DNA of 64,000 bases from Verrucomicrobiota bacterium (GTDB taxonomy: Bacteria > Verrucomicrobiota > Verrucomicrobiia > Opitutales > UBA953). The stretch covers positions 1-64,000 of the forward strand of contig VHDL01000003.1 in assembly GCA_016871415.1 (NCBI GenBank), written 5' to 3'. The notes beneath the pieces were generated by a model that worked only from the letters and a program-made list of their open reading frames with translations, ran no database searches and had not been told where the DNA came from. A program made the translations under genes and the position numbers. Shown here one piece after another: positions 5,689 through 27,665 of the stretch (positions are counted from its first letter, which is position 1; each line of letters starts with the position of its first letter).

Positions 5689-7602
5689 ATGAGCCGACCT
5701 CTTCTTCTGGCGCTGCTGCTGGGTTGCCTTCACCCCCGCCTTCTGGGCGCGGGTCAGGTCGGCGGGAGCTTCGGGCTCCTGCTGGATCTGGACCGGGATG
5801 GATTCATTGCGATGGGCGAGGGATCCGGGACGGAACAACCCTTTCATTGGTGGATCAACGACGATGACGACGAAGGGGACTGGCAGGCGGGCAAGGACAC
5901 CCCTCGGTTTGGCCCGCCGGACTGGTCCACCCCGCGCATCGACGGGCTCCGCGACCTTGTGGACTTCTTCCCCGTCTTCCTCGACTGCGGATTACTATAC
6001 CGGATGAATGGTCTGCCTGGTTCGCGTTATGAGGTCAGGTGTCAGGGCGGCGGGCTGGAGGCCTATGCGGTCGGCCTGAGTCCTGAAGACGCCGGCGGCC
6101 TGCACCGTCTCAAGGACCAGAAGCTGTTTGGCGAACATTTCGACCTTCCTTTGGAGGAGGCCGAGCCCATGGGCCTCGCTTCGGGCCAATGGGTGCATCT
6201 CTCCGTTGAGCATCTTTACCGGCTCTCGGTTGAGCAGGTCACTGGCGCCGCCATGCTCATCATGGAGGGACGCAAGGTCGGAAGGTTCGTCTTGGAGCTG
6301 CGGGTCACCACCGCCGCCGGCGAAGTCCACCTCTCGCGTCGCACGGTGGTCATCTCGCATGTCGAGTCCATGTACCGGGAGCTGATGGCCGGATCCGGCG
6401 TATCCCGCCTCGCGGAGCCGCGCGGGCTGCCCGACGCCGGCCTCGGGCGGGGATGGACCGTCTTCGTGCATGGTTACAATGTCCCCACCCACGCGGCCCG
6501 CGGGTGGAATGCGGAGATGTTCAAACGCCTCCACGCGCTGGGGTCCCGGCGGAAGTTCGTAGGCGTGAACTGGCCCGGAGCCACCGGCCTCGATTACCAT
6601 GCCGCCGTGCAGCGGGCGCTGATCTCAGGGCGTTCGCTCGGGGCGCAGGCCACCGCTTCAATCCGCGGAGGCGAAGTCGTGCTCATCGCGCACAGCCTGG
6701 GCAATGTCGTGGCCGGCGAGGCCGTCGAGCGCGGCGGTTGGAAGCCGGACAGGTATTACATGGTCAATGCGGCCGTGCCGGCGGAGGCCTACTCGTCCGA
6801 GGAAACGGACCCCTCCCATGCCTTCCACATGACCGAAGTGCAGTGGCGGGGCTATGAGCGTCGGCTTCACGCCTCCTCCTGGCACACGCTGTTTCCCCCG
6901 CATGACTATCGGAGCAAGTTCGCTTGGTCCGGCGCTTTCGGCAAGCTTCCAAAGGCAGTCCAGGTCATCAATGCCTATTCTGAAGGCGAGGATGTGACCA
7001 ATTGTCCTGAGGACATCGACTCCGCCTCCTTGCTCTCCGCCTTGATCGACGGGCGGGACTACAGTTACGGTGTCTGGAAGACGCAGGAGCTGCTGAAGGG
7101 CGTCCCCATGACGCGGTCGCTGGGGACGCTGTTCATGCGTCGCAGCCAGGCCGGATGGGGTTTCAATGAGTACTGGAAGGGACGATACGTGCTCAACGGC
7201 TCCCGTGAGCCTGGCGGCACCTACCTGCGCATGACGCCGGACGAGGCCGCACGCCTGACCGACGAACAACTCCGCACCCAGCCGTTCTTCGACCGTTTTC
7301 TCTGGAAATGGCTGCATGACCCGCGCCCGCGCCGCTCCAACGGGTCGCAGCAGGAGCTCGCCATGTTCACCGACGTGCTCGCCCGGGGCGTCCCCGCCAG
7401 AAGCTACGCCGCCGGATGTCATGCGATGTCCGTCAAGCTGGTTGCTGATTTGAATCTGGAGTCAGAAGGGCGCATTCCGGCGATGGGCTGGCCTCGGGAC
7501 GGCCACGAGGGCGACAAGAAGGCCGGCCGATGGCTGCACAGCGATTTCCGCAACGCCGCCCTCCCTTACGTCCATCCTTTTTTCAAGCAGCTTTCCCAAT
7601 GA
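5689..7602 (+). CDS. Exported alpha/beta hydrolase with GHSLG-like nucleophile elbow
   Basis: The 637-residue product starts with a signal peptide (MSRPLLLALLLG), then an EF-hand-like loop (LDLDRDGFI) and about 240 residues with no recognised domain. An alpha/beta hydrolase core follows, with an oxyanion-type VFVHGYN motif and the nucleophile elbow IAHSLGNV, whose serine is residue 336. The region GWNAEMFKRLH to VNWPGAT resembles the DUF900/lipase-like hydrolase group. Substrate unknown; a secreted esterase or lipase is the simplest reading. The ATG at 5689 is chosen over 5653 because it begins the signal peptide. Its TGA overlaps the ATG of the next gene (ATGA at 7599-7602), so the two are translationally coupled. 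Confidence 0.8.
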   Translation: MSRPLLLALLLGCLHPRLLGAGQVGGSFGLLLDLDRDGFIAMGEGSGTEQPFHWWINDDDDEGDWQAGKDTPRFGPPDWSTPRIDGLRDLVDFFPVFLDCGLLYRMNGLPGSRYEVRCQGGGLEAYAVGLSPEDAGGLHRLKDQKLFGEHFDLPLEEAEPMGLASGQWVHLSVEHLYRLSVEQVTGAAMLIMEGRKVGRFVLELRVTTAAGEVHLSRRTVVISHVESMYRELMAGSGVSRLAEPRGLPDAGLGRGWTVFVHGYNVPTHAARGWNAEMFKRLHALGSRRKFVGVNWPGATGLDYHAAVQRALISGRSLGAQATASIRGGEVVLIAHSLGNVVAGEAVERGGWKPDRYYMVNAAVPAEAYSSEETDPSHAFHMTEVQWRGYERRLHASSWHTLFPPHDYRSKFAWSGAFGKLPKAVQVINAYSEGEDVTNCPEDIDSASLLSALIDGRDYSYGVWKTQELLKGVPMTRSLGTLFMRRSQAGWGFNEYWKGRYVLNGSREPGGTYLRMTPDEAARLTDEQLRTQPFFDRFLWKWLHDPRPRRSNGSQQELAMFTDVLARGVPARSYAAGCHAMSVKLVADLNLESEGRIPAMGWPRDGHEGDKKAGRWLHSDFRNAALPYVHPFFKQLSQ

Positions 7603-8567
7603 GAACTTTGCTCGCGCTCCTGTTCTTCTCCGTCTCCGAGGCCGACCAAATCGTCGTGCGCGACTTTGAGGGGCGTCCTGTTCCGGAAGCGGCCGTGCGC
7701 GTCCTGCTCAACCGCCGCAACTATCCTTTCTCCGACGGCTCGACGCTCCTGACCGGAGTCACGGACGAAAACGGCCGCTGGGATTTCAAGCCCGGCGATC
7801 TGCACGTCTCCCGTGTGCACGTCGACAAGGTCGGCCATCATGAGGCGCGCATGGAGGGATTGAAGGTGCCCCGGACGCCCGGCCGCGAAGTCATCCTCCC
7901 GAGGAAAGGGGAGGCCGTCCCCTTGCATGCCAGAAAGGCCAACGCCGAACTGCCCGGGTACGTTTTCTCGGGCGTCGTTCCTTATGATTTCGAGAAAGGC
8001 GACCTGGTCGCGCCCGGTTGCAAGGGGGCGAGTCCAGACATCCTGATCCGCCTCTCCGCAAAACAGCTGGGTTGGCATTTGACGAAGTCGCCCGAGGAGA
8101 TTGACGCGTTCCTTGCGAAGGAGAAGGACTCCAAGGCCAGGGCCGGCTTCATGGCCGTCCATGGGAAGTGGGAACTGACGCTCGAGCTTCTCTTTCCCCA
8201 CGAAGGCGACGGCATCCTCGAGTCGCCCTACGCTGCCTACGCTTCCATGAAGTTGCCCTCGAAGGCCCCGGTGTCAGGTTATGGCCGAACGCTGGTTTTG
8301 GACAACAAGGCCTATGCCCAGAAAGACAGGGGCTTCTTCCTGCGCGTACGCACCATCAAGGACGAGGCCGGCAACATCGTCTCCGCGCACTACGCCAAGA
8401 TCTACGGCACGCCCCTCTTGAGTCCCGGGGGCTTCGCTTTCCAGTACTACTTCAATCCCGTTCCGAACGATCGTCGGCTCGAGTTCGACACGTCCCGCAA
8501 CCTCCAGCGGCCCGGCAAGGATGCGGACGTGCTGGAGCGGATCCGCTGCGAAATCAGCTCCCCCTGA
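7599..8567 (+). CDS. Exported protein of unknown function with a carboxypeptidase-regulatory-like N-terminal domain
   Basis: I do not recognise a family for the whole 322-residue protein. After a short hydrophobic leader (MRTLLALLFFSVSEA) comes a region with the pattern VVRDFEGRPVPEAAVRV..TGVTDENGRWDF. That pattern is typical of carboxypeptidase-regulatory-like or other Ig-like beta-sandwich domains that decorate exported proteins. The rest, about residues 110-322, is mixed alpha/beta without clear catalytic motifs. Its start codon overlaps the stop of the alpha/beta hydrolase gene (ATGA), and the pair is likely made and exported together. The last 14 bases overlap the 3' end of the convergent gene on the minus strand. 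Confidence 0.75.
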   Translation: MRTLLALLFFSVSEADQIVVRDFEGRPVPEAAVRVLLNRRNYPFSDGSTLLTGVTDENGRWDFKPGDLHVSRVHVDKVGHHEARMEGLKVPRTPGREVILPRKGEAVPLHARKANAELPGYVFSGVVPYDFEKGDLVAPGCKGASPDILIRLSAKQLGWHLTKSPEEIDAFLAKEKDSKARAGFMAVHGKWELTLELLFPHEGDGILESPYAAYASMKLPSKAPVSGYGRTLVLDNKAYAQKDRGFFLRVRTIKDEAGNIVSAHYAKIYGTPLLSPGGFAFQYYFNPVPNDRRLEFDTSRNLQRPGKDADVLERIRCEISSP

Positions 8568-8853
8568 GCGCTTCGGCGGCGATCTCGTCCCAGAGGGCGT
8601 CGATGCGGTCGGGCGTGACGGGGCGCCTGCCGGCTTCGGAGAACCAGTAGCGCGCGTTGGAGAGGTCGCCCTCGATGAGGTGCAGGAGGGCGTGCACCCA
8701 GGAGCCGTGCGGGGTCTCGTCATCCTGGGCGATGGCGTGGGCGCGCTCCCAGTCGCCCCGGGCGATCCACCAGAGCGCCTCGGCGGCCGGCGTGAGTTTG
8801 CCGGGCGGCGCGTCCTGCGCCTTGGCCGACTCTCGCAGCTGCGCGGGGGTCAT
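8554..8853 (-). CDS. Small conserved hypothetical protein, TPR-like helical
   Basis: A 99-residue cytoplasmic protein of unknown function. The pattern ALWWIARGDWERAHAIAQ..HGSWVHALLHLIEGDLSNARYWFSEAGR looks like two to three helix-turn-helix hairpins of the tetratricopeptide type, and I recall similar small proteins in Verrucomicrobiota, but this is from memory. The ATG at 8853 overlaps the stop of the short frame at 8850-8990 (ATGA), suggesting coupling. Its 3' end overlaps the convergent gene by 14 bases. Confidence 0.72.
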   Translation of the reverse strand: MTPAQLRESAKAQDAPPGKLTPAAEALWWIARGDWERAHAIAQDDETPHGSWVHALLHLIEGDLSNARYWFSEAGRRPVTPDRIDALWDEIAAEALRGS

Positions 8854-8990
8854 GCGTTCACTTCTTCTCCGCGGGCTTGCCGGGGGCGAGCGGGCGGTCC
8901 TGCGCGGCGATCACGGCGCGGTTCATCGGCCGCCAGGACGGCGAATGGGAGCACCAGGGCGGCGAGGAGGAAGCGGGATCTCATGTCCAT
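8850..8990 (-). pseudogene. Small exported protein, apparently frameshifted
   Basis: Read without correction, this frame encodes a 46-residue peptide: a convincing signal peptide (MRSRFLLAALVLPFAVLA, from ATG 8984 or 8990) and then an arginine-rich tail with poor third-position GC. In the +1 frame, from about 8926 to a stop at 8858-8860, the sequence reads MNRAVIAAQDRPLAPGKPAEKK, with almost every third codon base G or C as in neighbouring genes. This suggests a single-base frameshift near 8927, by mutation or sequencing error, in a small secreted or periplasmic protein. It precedes the gene at 8554-8853. Confidence 0.45.
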
Positions 8991-9039
8991 GAGGCCATCA
9001 TGCGGAGGAAGCGGTTCCGCCCGAAGCCTGAAATGGCGG

Positions 9040-10338
9040 TCAGACCTTTCTTCTGACCAGCAGTTTGTCGATCCGGGTGCCGTCGAGGTCGACCACTTCT
9101 GCTTCCAGCTTTCCAAGGTCGGCGACGTCGCCCTCCTTGGGGATGCGGCCCAGCGTGCGCATGACCAGCCCCGCCATGGTGGCGCATCCCTGTTCGCTCT
9201 CGCAACTGAAGGCCGCTTCGACCCCGGTCGCCTTGCGCAGCTCCTCCGGGGCGGCGTCACCGTCGACCAGCCATCCGCCCTCCGTCCGCGGCGTGATGGC
9301 GCGGGCCGGCGTCCGGGGCAGTTCGCCGGGCAGACGCCCCACGAGCCGCTCGAGAATGTCGTTGAGCGTCACGATGCCCAGCACCCGCCCGAACTCGTCG
9401 TTGACCAGCGCGACGTGCGCGCCACGCGTCTGGAACAGCTCGAGCAGCGCCGAACCGGAGAGGTCCGGCGGCACCGTGGCCGCGCCGGTGAGCAGCTCCT
9501 TGACCGGCGCCCCCCCCGTCATGGCGAGATTGGCCCAGAGACGTTTCACGGAGACCACGCCCGCCAGATCGTCGGGGGAGCCCCGATGGACCGGGAACCA
9601 GGTGTGGCCTGAACGGATCACCCGCCGCCAATTGTCCTCGTCCGGCAGCCGCAGGTCGAGCCAGGTGACCTTGCGCGCTGGAGTCATCAGTTGGGCCGCC
9701 GTCGTCCCGTCGAGCGAGAGCGCGCCGAGCATGATGCGCCGTTCGGCGTCATGGAGCCGCCCCGTCGCGTGGCCCGTCTCGACGAGCATCCGGAGGTCTT
9801 CCTCCGAGACGCCGGCCTCCTCGGGCCGCCGCCAGCCGGCCAGTCGCAGCACCCCTTCCGCGGCCCAGCCCAGTGCGCGCACCAGCGGATAGGCCGCCCA
9901 AGCGACGCCGGCCATCGGCCTCGCCAGCCAGCAGGCATAGGTCTCCGCATGGGCCATCGCGAGACGCTTGGGGACGATTTCCGCAAAGACGATCGTGACT
10001 GAGCCGATACCGAAGGAGACGATGCCCTCGGCGACCGCCAGCGCGTGTCCGCTGGCCCAAGGCAGGCTGGAACCTTCGAGGGATTTCGCCAGGCCGGCGC
10101 TCAGTTCGCCGCCGGACACGATCGCCGCAAGCACTCCCGTGAAGGTGATGCCCACCTGCACCGTCGATAGGAAGACCGCCGGTTCCTCGAGCAGCTTCAG
10201 CGCGGCCTCGGCGCCCCGGCTTCCCTGTCGGGCCATCCGGGTCAGCCTTGGTCTGCTGGCCGAGGCCAGCGCCATCTCGGCCGTCACGAAAAGCGTGGCG
10301 ACGGCGAGGCAGAGCGCGAGGAACAGCAGGGGGCCCAT
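9040..10338 (-). CDS. CNNM/CBS-domain transporter-like protein (hemolysin/CorC family)
   Basis: A 432-residue inner-membrane protein with the domain order of the HlyC/CorC family. An N-terminal DUF21/CNNM membrane domain (about 1-190; FVTAEMALASASR, FLSTVQVGITFTGVLAAI) is followed by a CBS pair (about 200-330; MTPARKVTWLDL, FGRVLGIVTLNDILERLVG) and a C-terminal CorC_HlyC domain (about 345-430). Members are linked to magnesium or other divalent-cation export or homeostasis; the old name hemolysin C is misleading. About 50 bases separate it from the sulfatase gene upstream on the same strand. Confidence 0.92.
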   Translation of the reverse strand: MGPLLFLALCLAVATLFVTAEMALASASRPRLTRMARQGSRGAEAALKLLEEPAVFLSTVQVGITFTGVLAAIVSGGELSAGLAKSLEGSSLPWASGHALAVAEGIVSFGIGSVTIVFAEIVPKRLAMAHAETYACWLARPMAGVAWAAYPLVRALGWAAEGVLRLAGWRRPEEAGVSEEDLRMLVETGHATGRLHDAERRIMLGALSLDGTTAAQLMTPARKVTWLDLRLPDEDNWRRVIRSGHTWFPVHRGSPDDLAGVVSVKRLWANLAMTGGAPVKELLTGAATVPPDLSGSALLELFQTRGAHVALVNDEFGRVLGIVTLNDILERLVGRLPGELPRTPARAITPRTEGGWLVDGDAAPEELRKATGVEAAFSCESEQGCATMAGLVMRTLGRIPKEGDVADLGKLEAEVVDLDGTRIDKLLVRRKV

Positions 10339-13936: not shown

Positions 13937-14842
13937 TTAGGCGAGGCGGCCGAGGGGCGAGCCGACCTTGGCGTACAGTTCGACGGCGGTCTCGCCGGCC
14001 TCGACGAGGTCGGCTTCGAGGCGGATGCGGCCAGGCTCGAAGAGGGTCGCGAGGTAGGATCCTCCGAAACGGAAGTAGCCGTTCTCCTCGCCCTTCGCGA
14101 CGGAGCGGCCGGGCTCGTAGGTGTCGACGATGGAGCCGACGTTGGTCGCGCCGACGGCCACGATGGTGACAAGGCCGAAGGGGCCGGCGTCGACGCTCAC
14201 GCGCCGCCTCCGGTTCTCCCAGAGGTAGGAGACGCGGCGACGAAGGGCCATGGGGTTCACTGAGAAGAGCGGGCCGTCGGTCATGACGGGCGCGCCGGGC
14301 ATGCCGCCGACGGGAAAGTGGAAGCGGTGGTAGTCCACCGGACAGAGCCGGGAGCAGACGACCGTCCCGTGCGCATACTTCTCGCCCAGCGCGCGGTCGG
14401 CCACCAGCGCGGGGATGTCGAAGGTCTGCCCCTTGGCGAAGACGCCCTTCACTGCGCCCGCGTCCTGGAAGCCGAGATGACGTCCGTCTGCCGGCAGCAC
14501 CGCCATGTCGGGCCGGGGGTCGGTGGGCCGGGCCGAGGGCTTGAGCCGGCGGTAGAAGAACTCGTTGAACGTCCGGTAGGCTGACAGGTCCTCCTCGGCG
14601 AACTCCGTCGCGTCCAGATCGTAGGCCTTCACGAAGGGCGCGACGCGGGACGCACTGGAGGGGCGGTCCATCGCCTTTCCGTAGAGGGCCGAGAAGAAGG
14701 CCCGCTTCACGACCAAGTGCAGGACGGCCCGCCCGAGGGGGTTGCCGTAGATACGCCGCAGCCAGGCCTCACCGTAGACCCGCTCCACCTCCGTCCCGCC
14801 GGTGTGGCGGTTGCGCAGGGTGATGGGGGCGTCGGCGGACAT
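13937..14842 (-). CDS. psd: Phosphatidylserine decarboxylase proenzyme
   Basis: Psd converts phosphatidylserine to phosphatidylethanolamine at the inner membrane and matures by self-cleavage to a pyruvoyl enzyme. The 301-residue product shows the family motifs: YRTFNEFFYRRLKP, VLPADGRHLGF, the histidine motif VDYHRFHFP, and a C-terminal YFRFGGSYLATLFEPG. The Ser of FGGS there is the expected cleavage and pyruvoyl residue; the usual GGST or GSS context is GGSY here. ATG 14842 is chosen over an in-frame start 39 bases upstream. It is divergent from the ClpP-like pair and shares a short promoter region with it. Confidence 0.93.
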   Translation of the reverse strand: MSADAPITLRNRHTGGTEVERVYGEAWLRRIYGNPLGRAVLHLVVKRAFFSALYGKAMDRPSSASRVAPFVKAYDLDATEFAEEDLSAYRTFNEFFYRRLKPSARPTDPRPDMAVLPADGRHLGFQDAGAVKGVFAKGQTFDIPALVADRALGEKYAHGTVVCSRLCPVDYHRFHFPVGGMPGAPVMTDGPLFSVNPMALRRRVSYLWENRRRRVSVDAGPFGLVTIVAVGATNVGSIVDTYEPGRSVAKGEENGYFRFGGSYLATLFEPGRIRLEADLVEAGETAVELYAKVGSPLGRLA

Positions 14843-14845
14843 GCG

Positions 14846-14890
14846 GTCAGATTTGCCAAGATTGGGCTTCTTTGGAACCATTTATCTGAC
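14846..14890. promoter_or_regulatory. Dyad in the psd / ClpP-like divergent promoter region
   Basis: The 66 bases between the two divergent starts contain the inverted repeat GTCAGAT (14846-14852) and ATCTGAC (14884-14890), with a smaller CCAA...TTGG pair inside. The stretch is AT-rich compared with its surroundings. A regulator binding site or overlapping promoters are possible; no consensus -35/-10 pair was convincing. Confidence 0.35.
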
Positions 14891-14908
14891 AGAAAAGAAA
14901 GACCCCCG

Positions 14909-16099
14909 ATGCGACGCCCAGCCCTTTCCGTCCTCCTAATCCTCGCCGCTTCCCTCGGCGCCCAGCAGTCCCCTCGTCCGCCCGAGGTCGTGAAGGCCGA
15001 GCTGGAGACCGAAGCCATCCGCGCGCGCCTCGAGCTCGCCGCCGCCAAGCGTCGTCTCGAGTCCCTCCCGGGTTCGCTGGAGATGCGCCGTCTCGAAGCC
15101 GAGGCCGCGCTCCGCAAGGCCCGTGCCGAAGCCGCGGCCGCCGGTGACGACGCCGAGAAGGAGCGCATCAAGCTCGAGCTCGAGACCGCCTCGGCCCGCG
15201 CCTCCTCCGCTTCTGTGGGCAAGGACCGCGCCCGCGCCGAACTCGAGATCAAAGCCCGCCTTGCCGCCGCCGAGGCCTCCGTCGAACTCGCCAAGGTGGC
15301 CTCCTCCGCCCAGATTGTCCTCCTCGAGAAGAAGGTCGCCGAAGTCGCCGCCGGCGCGAAGATGGAGTATCCGCAGGATCCCTTCGCCGACGGCGTGCTG
15401 CGCGTGAGCGACCGACGCATCCCCTTCAACGGCCGCGTGACCAGCCAGCTCGCCGACTACGTCTGCGGACGCATCGCCTTCTACAACGCCGTCGACCCCA
15501 AGGCGCCCATCTTCCTCATCATCGACCGCAACCCCGGCGGTTCCGTCATGGCCGGCTACCAGATCCTGCAGACCATGGAGGCCTCGAAGGCCCCAGTCTA
15601 CGTCGTCGTCAAGGGCTACGCCGCCTCGATGGCCGCCATCATCACCACCCTCGCCAAGCGCTCCTTCGTGTATCCTCAGGCGATTGTCCTGCACCACCAG
15701 GCCTCCACGGGCCTCGGAGGCAACCTCACCCAGCTCAACGAGCAGCTCAAGTGGAGCAAGTTCTGGGTCGAGCGCATCTTCGTCAAGGTGGCCGACCGCG
15801 TCGGCGTACCGCTCGACGACTTCGTGAAACAGATGTACGCCAACGCCTCGACCGGCGACTGGAAGGTCCTGGGTGACGAAGCCGTGCGCCGCCGCTGGGC
15901 CACCGACGTCGTGCAGCAGATCAAGGAGGAGTCCTTCTACGTCGCGGGCGCCACGCCCGCTCCCGCTCCGCTCGAACCCGACGTCTTCGGCAATGCCCGC
16001 CCCGGCGCCGACGGACGCGTCCGCGAGTCCCTGCCTCCCGCGGAGGCCGGCGACGCCTGGTGGATCCACGACCCCTCCGTCGAATTCGTCCTCCGCTGA
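14909..16099 (+). CDS. Exported ClpP-like serine peptidase with coiled-coil N-terminus (first of tandem pair)
   Basis: A 396-residue protein with a signal peptide (about 1-19), a long Ala/Glu/Arg/Lys-rich coiled coil (about 25-150) and a ClpP-type domain (about 155-340). The oxyanion/strand motif RNPGGSVMAGYQI and the catalytic triad expected from ClpP alignment are present: Ser240 in GYAASMAA, His263 in VLHHQAS and Asp317 in STGDW. Canonical ClpP is cytoplasmic, about 200 residues long, and works with AAA+ unfoldases; this one should be outside the cytoplasm, where ATP is absent. The C-terminus has a Pro-rich linker and ends in a DAWWIHDP motif shared with the next protein. ATG 14909 gives the signal peptide. 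Substrate and role are unknown; it is more likely a self-contained envelope protease or a scaffold than a Clp partner. Confidence 0.85.
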   Translation: MRRPALSVLLILAASLGAQQSPRPPEVVKAELETEAIRARLELAAAKRRLESLPGSLEMRRLEAEAALRKARAEAAAAGDDAEKERIKLELETASARASSASVGKDRARAELEIKARLAAAEASVELAKVASSAQIVLLEKKVAEVAAGAKMEYPQDPFADGVLRVSDRRIPFNGRVTSQLADYVCGRIAFYNAVDPKAPIFLIIDRNPGGSVMAGYQILQTMEASKAPVYVVVKGYAASMAAIITTLAKRSFVYPQAIVLHHQASTGLGGNLTQLNEQLKWSKFWVERIFVKVADRVGVPLDDFVKQMYANASTGDWKVLGDEAVRRRWATDVVQQIKEESFYVAGATPAPAPLEPDVFGNARPGADGRVRESLPPAEAGDAWWIHDPSVEFVLR

Positions 16100-16118
16100 A
16101 CCCCGCTCCCTCCCTCTC

Positions 16119-17417
16119 ATGAACACGCACCGCATCCTTCCCGCGCTCCTCGCGCTCGCCGCCCCGCTTTTCGCGCAGCAGGCCGCCGCCCCCTCCGCCG
16201 TTACCGCGCCCACGCCCGCCCCGGTCTCGCCCCGCCCCTCGCCCGAACTCACCCCCGAACAGAAGGAGCTGATGAAGGAGGTTGAGCGTATGCGCGGCGA
16301 GAAGGCCCGCATCGACGCCCAGGTCGCGCTCGCCGAGGCCCGTCGGGCCGAGGAGCTCGCTCCCCTCACCGCCGAGACCGCCAAGCTCGCCGCCGAACGC
16401 GCGCTCCGTCTCGCCAAGGCCGCCGCCGAGGCCGCCGCGCTCGAGGACGAGAAGGCCAAGCTGGAGCGCCAGACCTCCCTCGAGGCCGCCCGTTCGTCCG
16501 CCCGCCTCGCCGAGCGCATGAACCGTATCCGCGAGCTCGAGGCCGAGGCCAAGCAGCTCCAGCTCGAGGCTGGCAACACCGTCGCCCGCCTCACGAACGA
16601 GCTGAGCCGTTTCCAGAAGGAGGAGGAGGCCCGCAAGGTCGCCTCCCGCGCCAAGCCCCGCTATCTCAAGGACCCGCTCGTCGACGGCGTGCTGTACATC
16701 AGCGACCGCCGCATCCCCTTCAACGGCGCCGTCACCGACCAGCTGGCCGACCACGTCATCCAGCGCATCAACTTCTACAACAACCAGTCGGCCGAATTCC
16801 CGATCTTCATCGTGGTCGACAACAGCCCCGGTGGCTCCGTCGCCGCTGGCTACCAGATCCAGAAGGCCATGGCCGCTTCCAAGGCGCCCGTCTACGTCGT
16901 CGTCAAGGGCTTCGCCGCCTCGATGACCGCGGTCATCGCCACCCTCGCCGAGCGCTCCTTCTGCTACCCGAACAGCATCCTGCTGCACCACCAGGTCTCC
17001 AACAACCTGCGCGGCAACATGACCGTGCTCAAGGAGCAGATCCGCTTCACCACGGAGTGGTTCGACCGTCTCGGCACGCCGGTCGCCAAGAAGATGGGCA
17101 TCAGCCTCGAAGAGTTCGTGAAGCAGATGTACGCCAACGACTCGACGGGCGACTGGCAGGCCTTCGGCGAGCAGGCCAAGGCGCTCAAGTGGGTCGACAC
17201 GACCGTGGAGCGCATCGAGGAGACCGCCGTGCTCGATATCCTCCCCGTGCCCGTCGCGCCGACCGCCCCGGTCATCCGCCCCCCGCAGACCGAGGTCAGC
17301 GGCGTGACCGCCAAGGTCGACGACAAGGGACGTCCCTATTACGAGCTTCCTCCGCTCTCGAATCCCTTCGACGCCTGGTGGATGTACGACCCCCAAGGTC
17401 TTTACCGGGCGCGCTGA
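16119..17417 (+). CDS. Exported ClpP-like serine peptidase with coiled-coil N-terminus (second of tandem pair)
   Basis: A diverged paralogue of the upstream gene, 432 residues, 19 bases downstream. It has a signal peptide (1-19, ending APLFAQ), a Pro/Ala-rich stretch, a coiled coil (about 45-175), and a ClpP-type domain (about 185-370). The domain carries NSPGGSVAAGYQI, Ser268 in GFAASMTA, His291 in LLHHQVS and Asp345 in STGDW. The segments SDRRIPFNG, SKAPVYVVVKG, EFVKQMYAN-like and the C-terminal DAWWMYDP are shared with its partner, while the coiled coils differ. The pair could form a hetero-oligomeric ring, as some ClpP1/ClpP2 systems do; that is inference. A hairpin-forming stretch follows the stop. 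Confidence 0.85.
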   Translation: MNTHRILPALLALAAPLFAQQAAAPSAVTAPTPAPVSPRPSPELTPEQKELMKEVERMRGEKARIDAQVALAEARRAEELAPLTAETAKLAAERALRLAKAAAEAAALEDEKAKLERQTSLEAARSSARLAERMNRIRELEAEAKQLQLEAGNTVARLTNELSRFQKEEEARKVASRAKPRYLKDPLVDGVLYISDRRIPFNGAVTDQLADHVIQRINFYNNQSAEFPIFIVVDNSPGGSVAAGYQIQKAMAASKAPVYVVVKGFAASMTAVIATLAERSFCYPNSILLHHQVSNNLRGNMTVLKEQIRFTTEWFDRLGTPVAKKMGISLEEFVKQMYANDSTGDWQAFGEQAKALKWVDTTVERIEETAVLDILPVPVAPTAPVIRPPQTEVSGVTAKVDDKGRPYYELPPLSNPFDAWWMYDPQGLYRAR

Positions 17418-23926: not shown

Positions 23927-26137
23927 TCACTTCGCCTCGACCGGGTCGTTCTTGACCGCGGGGGCGGCGGCCACCGCCGGACCGCCCAGACGGACCGTCC
24001 AGTCGGTGGCGATGCGCACGGCCTCGTTGAGCTGCACGTCGTAGTCGGGCCACTCCTCGTCGTCGGCGAGCGGGTTGCGGGACTTCGCCTTGCGCGCCTT
24101 GCCGTAGGGCGAGGCCTCGTCCTTCTTCTCCTGCTCGATGGCGGCCTCCACCTTGACCTCGCTGACCTTGACCTTGCGGCCGGCCGCGTAGGCCTCGAGC
24201 TCCTTGCGGACCTGTTCGCGGAAGGCCGCGTCATCGGTCTTCTCCCGCTGACGGGCCTCGAGTGAGATTGGGAGCTCCTGCCGTTCCTGCCGGCTGCGCG
24301 TCCATTCGATCAGACGTCCCTGCGTGAGGAATTCCGGTAGCTCCGCGCGGCGGCGTTCACTGGCCGAGGAAAGTTCAGCGATGAGCTCGTCGGACACCTT
24401 GGCCTTGAGCCAGGGTCCCAGGTCGGGCTCGGTCAGCGAAGGCTTGACCGAATCCCAGGGGAGCGGGCGTTCCAGGTCGGACTCCGCGTTGGGCAGCACC
24501 GACCAGACCGAGGGAACCACGATGTCGGCGGGCACGCCCTTGAGCTGGATGGAGGAGCCGCTGGGCGCGTACCACTTCTGAATCGTCACCTTGACCGCCG
24601 ACTTCAGCTTCCGGTCGAACCGGCTCAGCTCGATGATGTTCTGCACCGAGCCTTTGCCGTGGGTCGTCTGGTCGCCGACCACGATGCCGCGCCGGTGGTC
24701 GCGCATCGCGCCTGCGAAGATCTCAGAGGCCGACGCGGAGCGCTTGGACGTGAGGACCACGAGCGGGCCGTTCCACGCGACCTTCTCGTTTTCGTCGCGG
24801 TAGTCCTCCTGCCGCCCCTGGCTGTCGCGCACCTGGAGCACCGAGCCCTTGGGGATGAACAGCCCGGAAAGGTCGACCGCCTCGGTGAGCAGTCCGCCGC
24901 CGTTGCGGCGAAGGTCCATGACGAGCGCCTGCATGCCCATCTTCTTGAGCTTGCCGAGGAGCTCCTCCACGTCCGCCGTGGGGCTGGAGCCTGTGCCGTC
25001 GGCGTTCTTGCTGTAGAAGGAGGGGAGGTCGACGACGCCGACGGAAACGAACCCCTTGCCCGCCGGCATCTCGAAGTAGCGGGCGGAGGCGAGCTGTCCG
25101 ACCAGCTTGATCTGGTCGCGCTTCAGCGAGATCGTCTCACGGCCGCCGGTGGCCTTGTCGAGCGTCAGGCGGACCGTCGATCCCTGCTTGCCGCGGATGC
25201 GGGTGATGGCGCGGTCGAGCCGCATGCCCACGATGTCCTCGACCGGGCCGTCGCCCTGGCCGACCGCGATGACCTTGTCACCCGGCTTGGCCTTGCCTGA
25301 CTGGTCGAGCGGACCGCCCGGGAGGATGTCCTTGATCACGCAGTAGCCGTCCTCGTCGGAGAGCGTGGCCCCGATGCCGCAGAGCGAGTTGCGCATCGCA
25401 ATCTCGAACTCCTCCAGCGTCTGCCCCGACATGAACGTCGAGTGCGGGTCATACTGCTGCGTGTAGGAATTGAGGAAGATCTCCTCCACCTCGTGCTGCT
25501 CCATCTTCAGGTAGGAGTGCACCTTGTCGTAGCGCTTGCGCAGCCGCTCGACCGCCTCGGCGACCTTGGCCGGAGAGACGTCCGCCTTGGCGGTGGCCTT
25601 TGCCTTCTCCTCCTTGTCACCGGACTTGTCGTCCCCGAGCAGTTCTCCCAGCAGGTCGAACTGCAGGCGCCGCATCCAGAGCTCGTCTGCCTCGGTGTCC
25701 GTCTTGGGCCAGCTCGCCTTGCGCCGGTCGGCGGGGAACGTACCTTCGCGGGCGAGGTCCACCGGCTTGACGAGCGCGTCCTTGATGATGCGGGCGCGTT
25801 CCTCGGCCTTGCGGGTGAACAGGGCGTAGATCTCGAAGGCCGGCGTGAGGTTGCCCCGCTCCATGTAAAGGTCGAGCGTCTTGGCGTAGCGTTCCATGAA
25901 CTCGTCCACCTCGGCCTGGGTGAAGTACATCTTCATCCGGTCGAGGTTCTCGCAGTAAGTGAGCAGTACCTCGCGCATGTCGACGGTCGACATCGCGCGA
26001 CGGCTGATGTGGAGGCGCTCGAGGAGCAGCGCGGTGGCCCGGGTCTCCTTCTGGATGGACTCGGTGGTCGTGAAGGCGGGCTGGTCGGCCGCCGAGCAGA
26101 GGGCGGCGGCCAACAGTAGCGACAGGATGGGGCGCAT
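23927..26137 (-). CDS. prc: Carboxy-terminal processing (tail-specific) protease Prc
   Basis: A 736-residue periplasmic S41A protease that trims or degrades envelope proteins from their C-terminus. A signal peptide (MRPILSLLLAAALCSA) is followed by the long Prc N-terminal helical region (YFTQAEVDEFMERY, EEIFLNSYTQQYDPHSTFM) and a PDZ domain (GIGATLSDEDGYCVIKDILPGGPLDQSGKAKPGD). Next comes the S41 core with LRRNGGGLL and the catalytic Ser in SASASEIFAG, then the Lys-containing THGKGSVQ. The domain order and length match E. coli Prc (about 680). It is followed on the same strand by galM after 48 bases and preceded by the rhomboid gene. Confidence 0.94.
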   Translation of the reverse strand: MRPILSLLLAAALCSAADQPAFTTTESIQKETRATALLLERLHISRRAMSTVDMREVLLTYCENLDRMKMYFTQAEVDEFMERYAKTLDLYMERGNLTPAFEIYALFTRKAEERARIIKDALVKPVDLAREGTFPADRRKASWPKTDTEADELWMRRLQFDLLGELLGDDKSGDKEEKAKATAKADVSPAKVAEAVERLRKRYDKVHSYLKMEQHEVEEIFLNSYTQQYDPHSTFMSGQTLEEFEIAMRNSLCGIGATLSDEDGYCVIKDILPGGPLDQSGKAKPGDKVIAVGQGDGPVEDIVGMRLDRAITRIRGKQGSTVRLTLDKATGGRETISLKRDQIKLVGQLASARYFEMPAGKGFVSVGVVDLPSFYSKNADGTGSSPTADVEELLGKLKKMGMQALVMDLRRNGGGLLTEAVDLSGLFIPKGSVLQVRDSQGRQEDYRDENEKVAWNGPLVVLTSKRSASASEIFAGAMRDHRRGIVVGDQTTHGKGSVQNIIELSRFDRKLKSAVKVTIQKWYAPSGSSIQLKGVPADIVVPSVWSVLPNAESDLERPLPWDSVKPSLTEPDLGPWLKAKVSDELIAELSSASERRRAELPEFLTQGRLIEWTRSRQERQELPISLEARQREKTDDAAFREQVRKELEAYAAGRKVKVSEVKVEAAIEQEKKDEASPYGKARKAKSRNPLADDEEWPDYDVQLNEAVRIATDWTVRLGGPAVAAAPAVKNDPVEAK

Positions 26138-26149
26138 GGGGGAGGGGGG

Positions 26150-27052
26150 TCAGCGCAACTTTGCGCTGAGCTCTTCGAGTCTGCGTTTCTCGCCGGGAGT
26201 GAGCGAGCCGAATCCCCGGGCGGAGATCTTGTCCAGGAGGGCGTCCAGCTCGGCCCGGGCGCGGGCGCGGCTAAGTCCTTCCGGGGCTGACGCTTCCTCT
26301 TCGCCCGCATGGGCGAACTCGGGATTCTCAGAATAGGCCTGACGTTCCGAAGGTATCGTCTCCTGAGCGGAGCCGGCCCCCGTTTCCGTCTGCCCGACCC
26401 GGCGCCAGGCGAGGAAGCCCACCAGCAGGCCTCCGAGATGCGCCGAATGGGCCACCGAAGAGACCCAGGCCGCCCGCCAGCCCTGCCAGTCATGGCGGTG
26501 CGGCAGTTCGGAGAACGCCCACCCGGCGAGGGCGAAAACGGCGGTGCCGATGACCAGCCAGCGCACCTTCAAGTTCACCGGCAGGAAGAAAAAGAGCAGG
26601 ATCGGGATGCGGTCCTCCATGCGCCCGAGCAGGGCCACCAGGGCCAGCGCGTGCACCGCGCCGGAGGCGCCGACGAGGGCGCCGTCGCTCCTACCGCCGA
26701 CGCCGGTCAGCCACCAGACGAGGGCGCCGACCACCGCGCCGGCCGACAGCACGCCGACGAAGATCCGCGGCCCCCGCTCGCGTTCGACGATGGCGCCGGT
26801 CCACCACAGCATGAGCCCGTTGCCCAGCAGGTGCCAGAAGCCCTCATGCACCAGGGCGTAGGTGAACCATTGCCAGGTGTGCGTCTCCCGCTCGCGGATT
26901 ACCGCCCAGCCGAGCAGGTCGGCCTGGGCGGAGTCCCCGACCAGCCCCACGATGAAGAAGAGTACGAGCAGGCCGACCGTCCAATGGGTCAGCGGCCGCG
27001 CCTCGGAAGAGGGGCGGGTTCCGCGCATGTACGTCCGGTCGCCGACGCCCAT
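26150..27052 (-). CDS. Rhomboid family intramembrane serine protease
   Basis: A 300-residue protein with six or seven membrane helices and the rhomboid signatures: HEGFWHLLGNGLMLWWTG (HxxxN region), the nucleophile motif VGASGAVHAL, and the catalytic His in SAHLGGLLVGF. The C-terminal ~80 residues are soluble and rich in Ala/Glu/Arg, with a helical GFGSLTPGEKRRLEELSAKL tail. Rhomboids cut single-span membrane proteins; the target is unknown. The gene starts 4 bases after clpP and ends 12 bases before prc, so clpP, rhomboid and prc form a protease operon. An alternative ATG lies at 27028. Confidence 0.9.
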   Translation of the reverse strand: MGVGDRTYMRGTRPSSEARPLTHWTVGLLVLFFIVGLVGDSAQADLLGWAVIRERETHTWQWFTYALVHEGFWHLLGNGLMLWWTGAIVERERGPRIFVGVLSAGAVVGALVWWLTGVGGRSDGALVGASGAVHALALVALLGRMEDRIPILLFFFLPVNLKVRWLVIGTAVFALAGWAFSELPHRHDWQGWRAAWVSSVAHSAHLGGLLVGFLAWRRVGQTETGAGSAQETIPSERQAYSENPEFAHAGEEEASAPEGLSRARARAELDALLDKISARGFGSLTPGEKRRLEELSAKLR

Positions 27053-27056
27053 GCGC

Positions 27057-27665
27057 TCAGAGCTTCTTCACGATCGCGTCGGCGAGGCCGTACTCGATGG
27101 CCTCCACGGCGGTCATGTAGAAGTCGCGGTCCGTATCCTTGACCACCTTGTCCAGCTTCTGGCCGGACGCCTTGGCGAGGATCTCGTTCAGTTCGGCGCG
27201 GAGACGCTCCATCTCCAGGGCCTGAATGTGGATATCGACTGCCGGAGCTTGGATGCGGCCCATGATGAGCGGCTGATGGATCATCACCCGGGCGTGGGGG
27301 AAGAGCAGCCGTCCGCCCTTCTGCCTGGGGGCCTGGAGCAGGATGGAGCCCATCGAGGCGGCCATGCCGGTGACCACGACCTTCACCGGCGAGGAGATTA
27401 GGCGGATGGTGTCGTAGACCGCCATGCCGGCCGTGATGGAGCCGCCGGGGGTGTTGACGTAGAAGGTGATCTCCTTGCCCGGGGCGTCGGACTCCAGGTA
27501 GAGGAGCTTCTCGACGATGTCCTTGGCGGAGGCGTCATCAACGCCGCCCCAGAGGAAGATCTTCCGCTGCTCCAGGAACTTCTTCTGGATTAGCATCGCG
27601 CTCGGGGGCGTCTCCTTCGGGGCCTCCGGGGTCTTCTCGTCTTCTTCGTCGTCGTCGTTAAACAT
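27057..27665 (-). CDS. clpP: ATP-dependent Clp protease proteolytic subunit
   Basis: The cytoplasmic ClpP peptidase, a 202-residue protein that assembles into double heptameric rings and degrades substrates fed by ClpX, ClpA or ClpC. The triad is Ser104 in TGMAASMGS, His130 in VMIHQPL and Asp181 in DTDRDFYM, with the usual NTPGGSITAGMAVYD before them. The N-terminal ~22 residues are an acidic, proline-rich extension (FNDDDEEDEKTPEAP) and may be a processed propeptide. The start has no Shine-Dalgarno sequence. No unfoldase gene is adjacent. It is clearly distinct from the two exported ClpP-like proteins at 14909-17417. Confidence 0.96.
   Translation of the reverse strand: MFNDDDEEDEKTPEAPKETPPSAMLIQKKFLEQRKIFLWGGVDDASAKDIVEKLLYLESDAPGKEITFYVNTPGGSITAGMAVYDTIRLISSPVKVVVTGMAASMGSILLQAPRQKGGRLLFPHARVMIHQPLIMGRIQAPAVDIHIQALEMERLRAELNEILAKASGQKLDKVVKDTDRDFYMTAVEAIEYGLADAIVKKL

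Follow-up and report, generated by a model that had tools for sequence, protein, structure and literature searches.

ClpP, the peptidase core of ClpXP and ClpAP (MEROPS family S14), is the classic example of a compartment protease that works inside the cell and depends on ATP. ATP is absent from the envelope, and the proteases known to act there (Deg, Prc/Ctp, SppA and the rhomboids) are built differently. Mixed rings of two ClpP paralogues, ClpP/ClpR and ClpP1/ClpP2, occur in cyanobacteria, plastids, Mycobacterium and Listeria. SppA (S49) is a periplasmic, ATP-independent member of the ClpP/crotonase superfamily that uses a Ser-Lys dyad, and NfeD1b (STOPP) with stomatins, along with SPFH cages such as HflK/C, provides a ClpP-fold protease and a long-helix membrane cage as separate proteins. 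Here we analyse two adjacent genes, A and B, that encode ClpP-like proteins with export signals. They lie in a stretch of 64,000 nucleotides (the window) at the start of contig VHDL01000003.1 from a Verrucomicrobiota bacterium (GCA_016871415.1), whose genome of 2.2 Mb is 99.5% complete and has mainly freshwater Opitutae (Verrucomicrobiota) as near relatives. On balance, we favour the reading that A and B are subunits of an exported, ATP-independent, ClpP-type serine peptidase of the envelope, which is probably hetero-oligomeric. If this is true, a conserved, exported S14 family in Verrucomicrobiota would show that the ClpP chamber can be reused without its motor, and the family offers a natural system for asking what the minimum gate is.

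Export signals and catalytic features of A and B

The two genes have the following features, those within each protein being predicted:

14909..16099, + strand: gene A, putative exported ClpP-like peptidase subunit, 396 amino acids (aa)
14909..14965, + strand: signal peptide of A, residues ~1-19, putative cleavage LGA|QQ, by sequence
14981..15352, + strand: long helix of A, residues 25-148, from the AlphaFold2 model, the 25-residue repeat and dN/dS
15380..15931, + strand: ClpP-type domain of A, residues 158-341 (PF00574, E 3.8e-20; structural match to ClpP, Z 23.7)
15932..16096, + strand: C-terminal element of A, DAWWIHDP, from family conservation
16119..17417, + strand: gene B, putative exported ClpP-like peptidase subunit, 432 aa
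16119..16178, + strand: signal peptide of B, residues ~1-20, putative cleavage LFA|QQ; lipobox in gut-clade orthologues
16254..16643, + strand: long helix of B, residues 46-175, from the AlphaFold2 model, the 25-residue repeat and dN/dS
16674..17225, + strand: ClpP-type domain of B, residues 186-369 (PF00574, E 5.4e-21; structural match to ClpP, Z 21.6)
17226..17414, + strand: C-terminal element of B, DAWWMYDP, with predicted beta strands

The stop of A and the start of B are 19 bp apart, and the proteins are ~45% identical. An earlier note made from the letters of the window had described A and B as adjacent, diverged genes, and its coordinates, frames and order all held. Within near relatives, where synonymous sites are near saturation, the ClpP domain had a median dN/dS of 0.18 in A and 0.11 in B; for the long helix, the values were 0.27 and 0.12, respectively. 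A and B are real genes under purifying selection, and because the values are low in both domain and helix, the layout is not a product of chance. With 0.12 for its helix and 0.11 for its domain, B appears to be constrained in the helix about as strongly as in the enzyme domain.

Both proteins start with Sec-type-looking N-termini, MRRPALSVLLILAASLGA-QQ in A and MNTHRILPALLALAAPLFA-QQ in B. By our own hydropathy rule, a hydrophobic, signal-peptide-type N-terminus was present in all 62 aligned members of the family, whereas the two ordinary ClpPs of the source genome (one at 27057-27665, the other adjoining clpX on a separate contig) have none. In a gut clade, the B orthologues also carry a lipobox (FAGC, LSGC, LGGC or LAGC; loci L079, L081, L083, L084, L085, L088 and L135), which makes a cytoplasmic location hard to explain. 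The residue following the lipobox Cys in these proteins is not Asp; in E. coli, a non-Asp residue at this position directs lipoproteins to the outer membrane, a rule that may not apply to gut-clade B. We conclude that A and B are very probably exported, as the earlier note had held when it assigned signal peptides to both. They could instead be cytoplasmic ClpP variants with N-termini that merely resemble signal peptides, given that our calls come from a home-made hydropathy rule, but the lipoboxes, the hydrophobic N-termini of all members and the ordinary ClpPs without them make this highly improbable. One single-copy member (L124:5834-7144, - strand; G242, genus g18) has an open frame with no signal peptide visible at its beginning; the cause may be a frameshift, a misassembly or an unusual start.

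The ClpP domain of the pair scored 72.9 and 75.7 bits with PF00574 against a cut-off of 20.2, and all 62 aligned members matched this profile. Predicted models of A and B aligned with solved ClpPs over ~170 residues, and the closest structures among the matches listed were all ClpP. Column alignment with both ordinary ClpPs of the genome placed the catalytic triad at S240/H263/D317 in A and S268/H291/D345 in B, the positions that had been read from the sequence before. Ser-His-Asp was intact in 60 of the 62 members, including every aligned single-copy one, together with the PGG oxyanion loop; the handle helix of ClpP and the GN-T segment following the active His are also kept. The C-terminal DAWWxxDP motif noted earlier as common to both proteins is indeed present, as DAWWIHDP in A and DAWWMYDP in B, and across the family this element is conserved as DxWWxxDP / YNPDxYYR. 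Export and family are well supported, and peptidase activity of A and B is likely from these conserved residues. The ClpP fold could instead serve in a non-proteolytic scaffold, or in another hydrolase, whose main functional part is the helices, and the persistence of two triad-less members and the constraint on the B helix fit such a role; we nevertheless consider it very unlikely, with the full triad and oxyanion loop kept so widely, also in the single-copy members.

Profiles of described systems all remained below their cut-offs: the canonical ClpP equivalog TIGR00493 (51.3 and 53.2 bits for A and B, against 308.6), SppA TIGR00706 (17.2 and 24.3 against 155.45), NfeD1b/STOPP PF25145 (18.9 and 22.3 against 40, with weak matches in 31 of the 62 members) and the SDH-type ClpP-like proteinase PF01972 (23.1 and 21.3 against 31.3). 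Thus, by profile and model, A and B pass the domain, triad and fold tests of ClpP (S14) but fail the profiles of canonical ATP-dependent ClpP, SppA, NfeD1b and SDH. The weak matches to the SppA, SDH and NfeD1b profiles, all of them under threshold, and the stomatin–NfeD comparison that an exported long helix with a ClpP fold invites, would suit a signal-peptide peptidase or a stomatin-linked membrane peptidase of the SppA or NfeD kind. However, these matches lie far under the curated cut-offs, a profile search of the 62 members found no NfeD or SPFH domain over threshold, the catalytic columns are Ser-His-Asp, and no structure other than ClpP was among the nearest matches listed; we regard such a peptidase as improbable. 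With SppA, A and B would share envelope location (predicted), ATP independence (predicted) and superfamily, but SppA has its Ser-Lys dyad and another architecture. From NfeD1b with stomatins and from HflK/C they differ in joining ClpP fold and long helix in one polypeptide. The earlier note had named cytoplasmic location, or homologues that are ordinary ClpP or SppA proteins, as findings that would speak against its proposal; computationally we found neither. Its remark that no such system had been described agrees with our targeted full-text literature searches, which found no described exported S14 family, most subscription journals being outside their coverage.

The same features of fold, Ser-His-Asp order, PGG loop and handle helix make ClpP itself the closest relative, from which A and B differ by export, by a helix of ~125 residues where ClpP has its N-terminal axial loops, by the extra C-terminal element and by the lack of a linked unfoldase: no Clp ATPase gene lies beside A and B. 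Compared with the ordinary ClpPs of the genome, the family also has a one-residue insert ahead of PGG, lacks 2-3 residues before the His strand and has additional residues before the catalytic Asp. In the strand preceding PGG, a Tyr found in both ordinary ClpPs is replaced by Val/Ile in 62 of 62 members. We take this Tyr to be part of the unfoldase-docking pocket, and because it is replaced, docking has probably been lost in the family. The Arg directly before the catalytic Asp in ClpP, which presumably contributes to contacts between the rings, is replaced by Gly in 60 of 62 members.

The long N-terminal helix as a possible gate

AlphaFold2 monomer models built from family alignments (mean pLDDT ~85) predicted a continuous helix of 124 residues in A and 130 in B, followed by the ClpP domain. 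Block-mean pLDDT across most of the helix was 79-93 (A) and 74-96 (B). Along the helix we found a 25-residue hydrophobic repeat, with a mean autocorrelation of 0.255 versus -0.01 +/- 0.011 in shuffles (57 related members; the value is not a probability). The repeat occurs in A, B and single-copy relatives and is weaker in gut-clade B. We rejected a classical heptad coiled coil, as the spectra show no clear heptad and support the 25-residue repeat instead. Of the coiled coil of over 100 residues proposed earlier, the long helix therefore stands and the heptad character does not. As 25 residues correspond to about 7 helical turns, the repeat is consistent with near-straight packed helices like those in helical barrels.

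The N-terminal segment of ClpP lines the axial entrance. In structural alignments, residues 164-171 onwards of the B model align with ClpP residues 1-8 onwards. Because the end of the helix aligns with this axial segment, the long helices should, in the models, exit the ring at the unfoldase site. That they form a helical gate at the axial entrance is conceivable, although we would not yet bet on it. The earlier suggestion that the coils replace the unfoldase as a gate is thus compatible with the model geometry as an unproven possibility, though for helices without a classical heptad pattern.

In the mechanism that we propose, A and B would be exported across the inner membrane through the Sec pathway, and in the gut clade, in which B would be lipid-anchored, the complex would be tethered to the membrane. 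The ClpP domains would assemble, probably into a ring that contains both proteins and encloses the active sites. The N-terminal helices would emerge on the side used by ClpX or ClpA for docking and build a helical collar. This collar would hold the ring and limit access to it, so that cleavage would be confined to peptides and unfolded proteins and would need no ATP. Envelope quality control is the natural guess for the substrates. We infer the proteolytic activity, the ring number, the mixing of A and B, the collar or gate and the substrates. The idea of an ATP-independent envelope protease, already put forward in the earlier note, gains from the export signals, the intact triad and the separation from SppA, but activity itself is deduced. 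In its most complete form, an ATP-free, self-compartmentalised ClpP chamber of the envelope in which two paralogues carry a membrane-tied barrel of 25-residue-repeat helices as a passive gate in place of the unfoldase, the proposal is speculative and we judge it unlikely as a whole.

Duplication history and a possible mixed ring

Among genomes at least 80% complete, the gene was present in 57 of the 61 of the source GTDB family. Four genera (g1, g15, g16 and g17) have the pair, and all seven genomes of g18 have a single, B-type copy. G628 (g1) gave a single match, with B at a contig edge and A expected beyond the contig end. In loci from named records, the complete pairs were adjacent in 51 of 51 cases, spaced -4 to 46 bp apart (median 20); in all 53 pairs scored for order, A came first. 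Outside the source family, single-copy members were found in 8 genomes from the other families within its order; across the class and phylum as well, 32 of 388 sampled genomes carry the gene, usually as one copy. In these outside members, too, a signal peptide and a long helix precede the ClpP domain, and the C-terminal element ends like YNPDxYYR. L166 (G524, family f29) has a separate tandem duplication (6972-8276 and 8358-9554) in which both copies have intact catalytic motifs. Judged by these genes, conservation of the family extends over several families and classes of Verrucomicrobiota; coverage outside the phylum consisted of one narrow contig scan, plasmids, phages and viral contigs, and restriction to the phylum is provisional.

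In a tree rooted on the outside relatives, from which we omitted L134 and L135 for their long branches and L146 as a separate duplicate, the source family formed a clade (support 100/99), within which A formed one clade (93/85) and B with the g18 copies another (92/88). This pairing of clades suggests one duplication before the genera of the source family split, followed by loss of A in g18; the inner-clade supports are good, not decisive. The tandem layout that the earlier note proposed to look for in other genomes is consequently not universal: other families are usually single-copy, and the pair appears to stem from one old duplication in one family.

Two pairs have lost the triad on one side. 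The first gene of L134 (G161; 6903-8222, - strand) has Gly-Glu-Gln at the three catalytic columns, and the second gene of L135 (G092; 5925-7319, - strand) has Gly-Ser-Glu; in each case the frame is open over its full length and the neighbour is intact. Mixed rings such as ClpP/ClpR show this very combination, in which both paralogues persist although one has lost its triad, so the independent losses on either side count as indirect evidence for mixing here. A and B resemble these rings and those of ClpP1/ClpP2 in having two paralogues, one of them catalytically dead in some lineages, but differ in their predicted envelope location and in that both usually have an intact triad; their mixing is putative. 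We lean towards a mixed complex of A and B. It would apply only in the pair-bearing family, because the gene is usually single elsewhere, and the mixed ring proposed in the earlier note is thus indirectly favoured by the reciprocal losses but limited to one family. Given the old duplication and pairs in which only one partner is dead, the question of a mixed ring can be tested directly.

Two separate homo-oligomeric envelope peptidases, duplicated and diverged in substrate or anchoring with no joint complex, would account for the single-copy relatives of the same layout that are the rule outside the source family, for g18 and for an identity between A and B of merely ~45%. Strict adjacency, constant order and a short gap across genera, together with loss of the triad in one partner on opposite sides in two lineages, fit one complex better, and we consider separate peptidases a serious but less probable alternative.

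Some observations weigh against a hetero-oligomeric envelope peptidase built like ClpP. Its export is read from signal peptides called by our home-made rule. The usual tetradecameric double ring may not form, because the presumed contact Arg is replaced by Gly, and stacking, if present, may be arranged otherwise. The inactive partners come from two single genomes on long branches, and L134_B sits in the A clade, making the A and B labels uncertain there. Because the g18 genomes and other families get by with a single gene, mixing cannot be a general requirement for function.

Neighbouring genes and other contexts

Further features of the window that bear on the context of A and B are:

13937..14881, - strand: phosphatidylserine decarboxylase gene, divergent from A (PF02666); a neighbour of the putative system
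23927..26137, - strand: Prc-like S41 tail-specific protease
26150..27052, - strand: rhomboid with DUF6576
27057..27665, - strand: ordinary ClpP without signal peptide and with no adjoining ATPase gene, for comparison and outside the system (PF00574, E 3.7e-61; PRK12553 over cut-off)

The phosphatidylserine decarboxylase gene and A diverge from start codons that lie 27 bp apart (14881-14909). The decarboxylase (neighbour cluster c0) recurs beside the locus in g1, g16, g17 and g18 and may share regulation with A and B. It is the only neighbour that recurs across genera, and we found no conserved operon partner in the source family. A sigma-70 site search for a shared promoter was negative, and a conserved block upstream of A is mostly the start of the decarboxylase gene. 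We also rejected an origin in phages or plasmids, to which we found only domain-level matches of ~25-42% identity over at most half of the query, all to ClpP-type proteins and some of them annotated as ClpP or head-maturation proteases. A role in anti-phage defence was likewise set aside, with no PADLOC match.

The gene directly upstream of the exported ClpP-like gene in families f29 and f33 mostly encodes a membrane-anchored protein of ~280 aa, cluster c24 (L162, L163, L165, L166, L168, L171, L172, L174 and L176; one gene further in L169). It had no Pfam match over the cut-off, and a single-sequence search of the source genome found no match. The c24 protein is a candidate operon partner in f29 and f33, not established as a general one.

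The ordinary ClpP at 27057-27665, which the earlier note had already recognized, has one counterpart in the genome, the copy beside clpX. In the window it is one of three proteases in a row (23927-27665, - strand), with the rhomboid and the Prc-like S41 protease.
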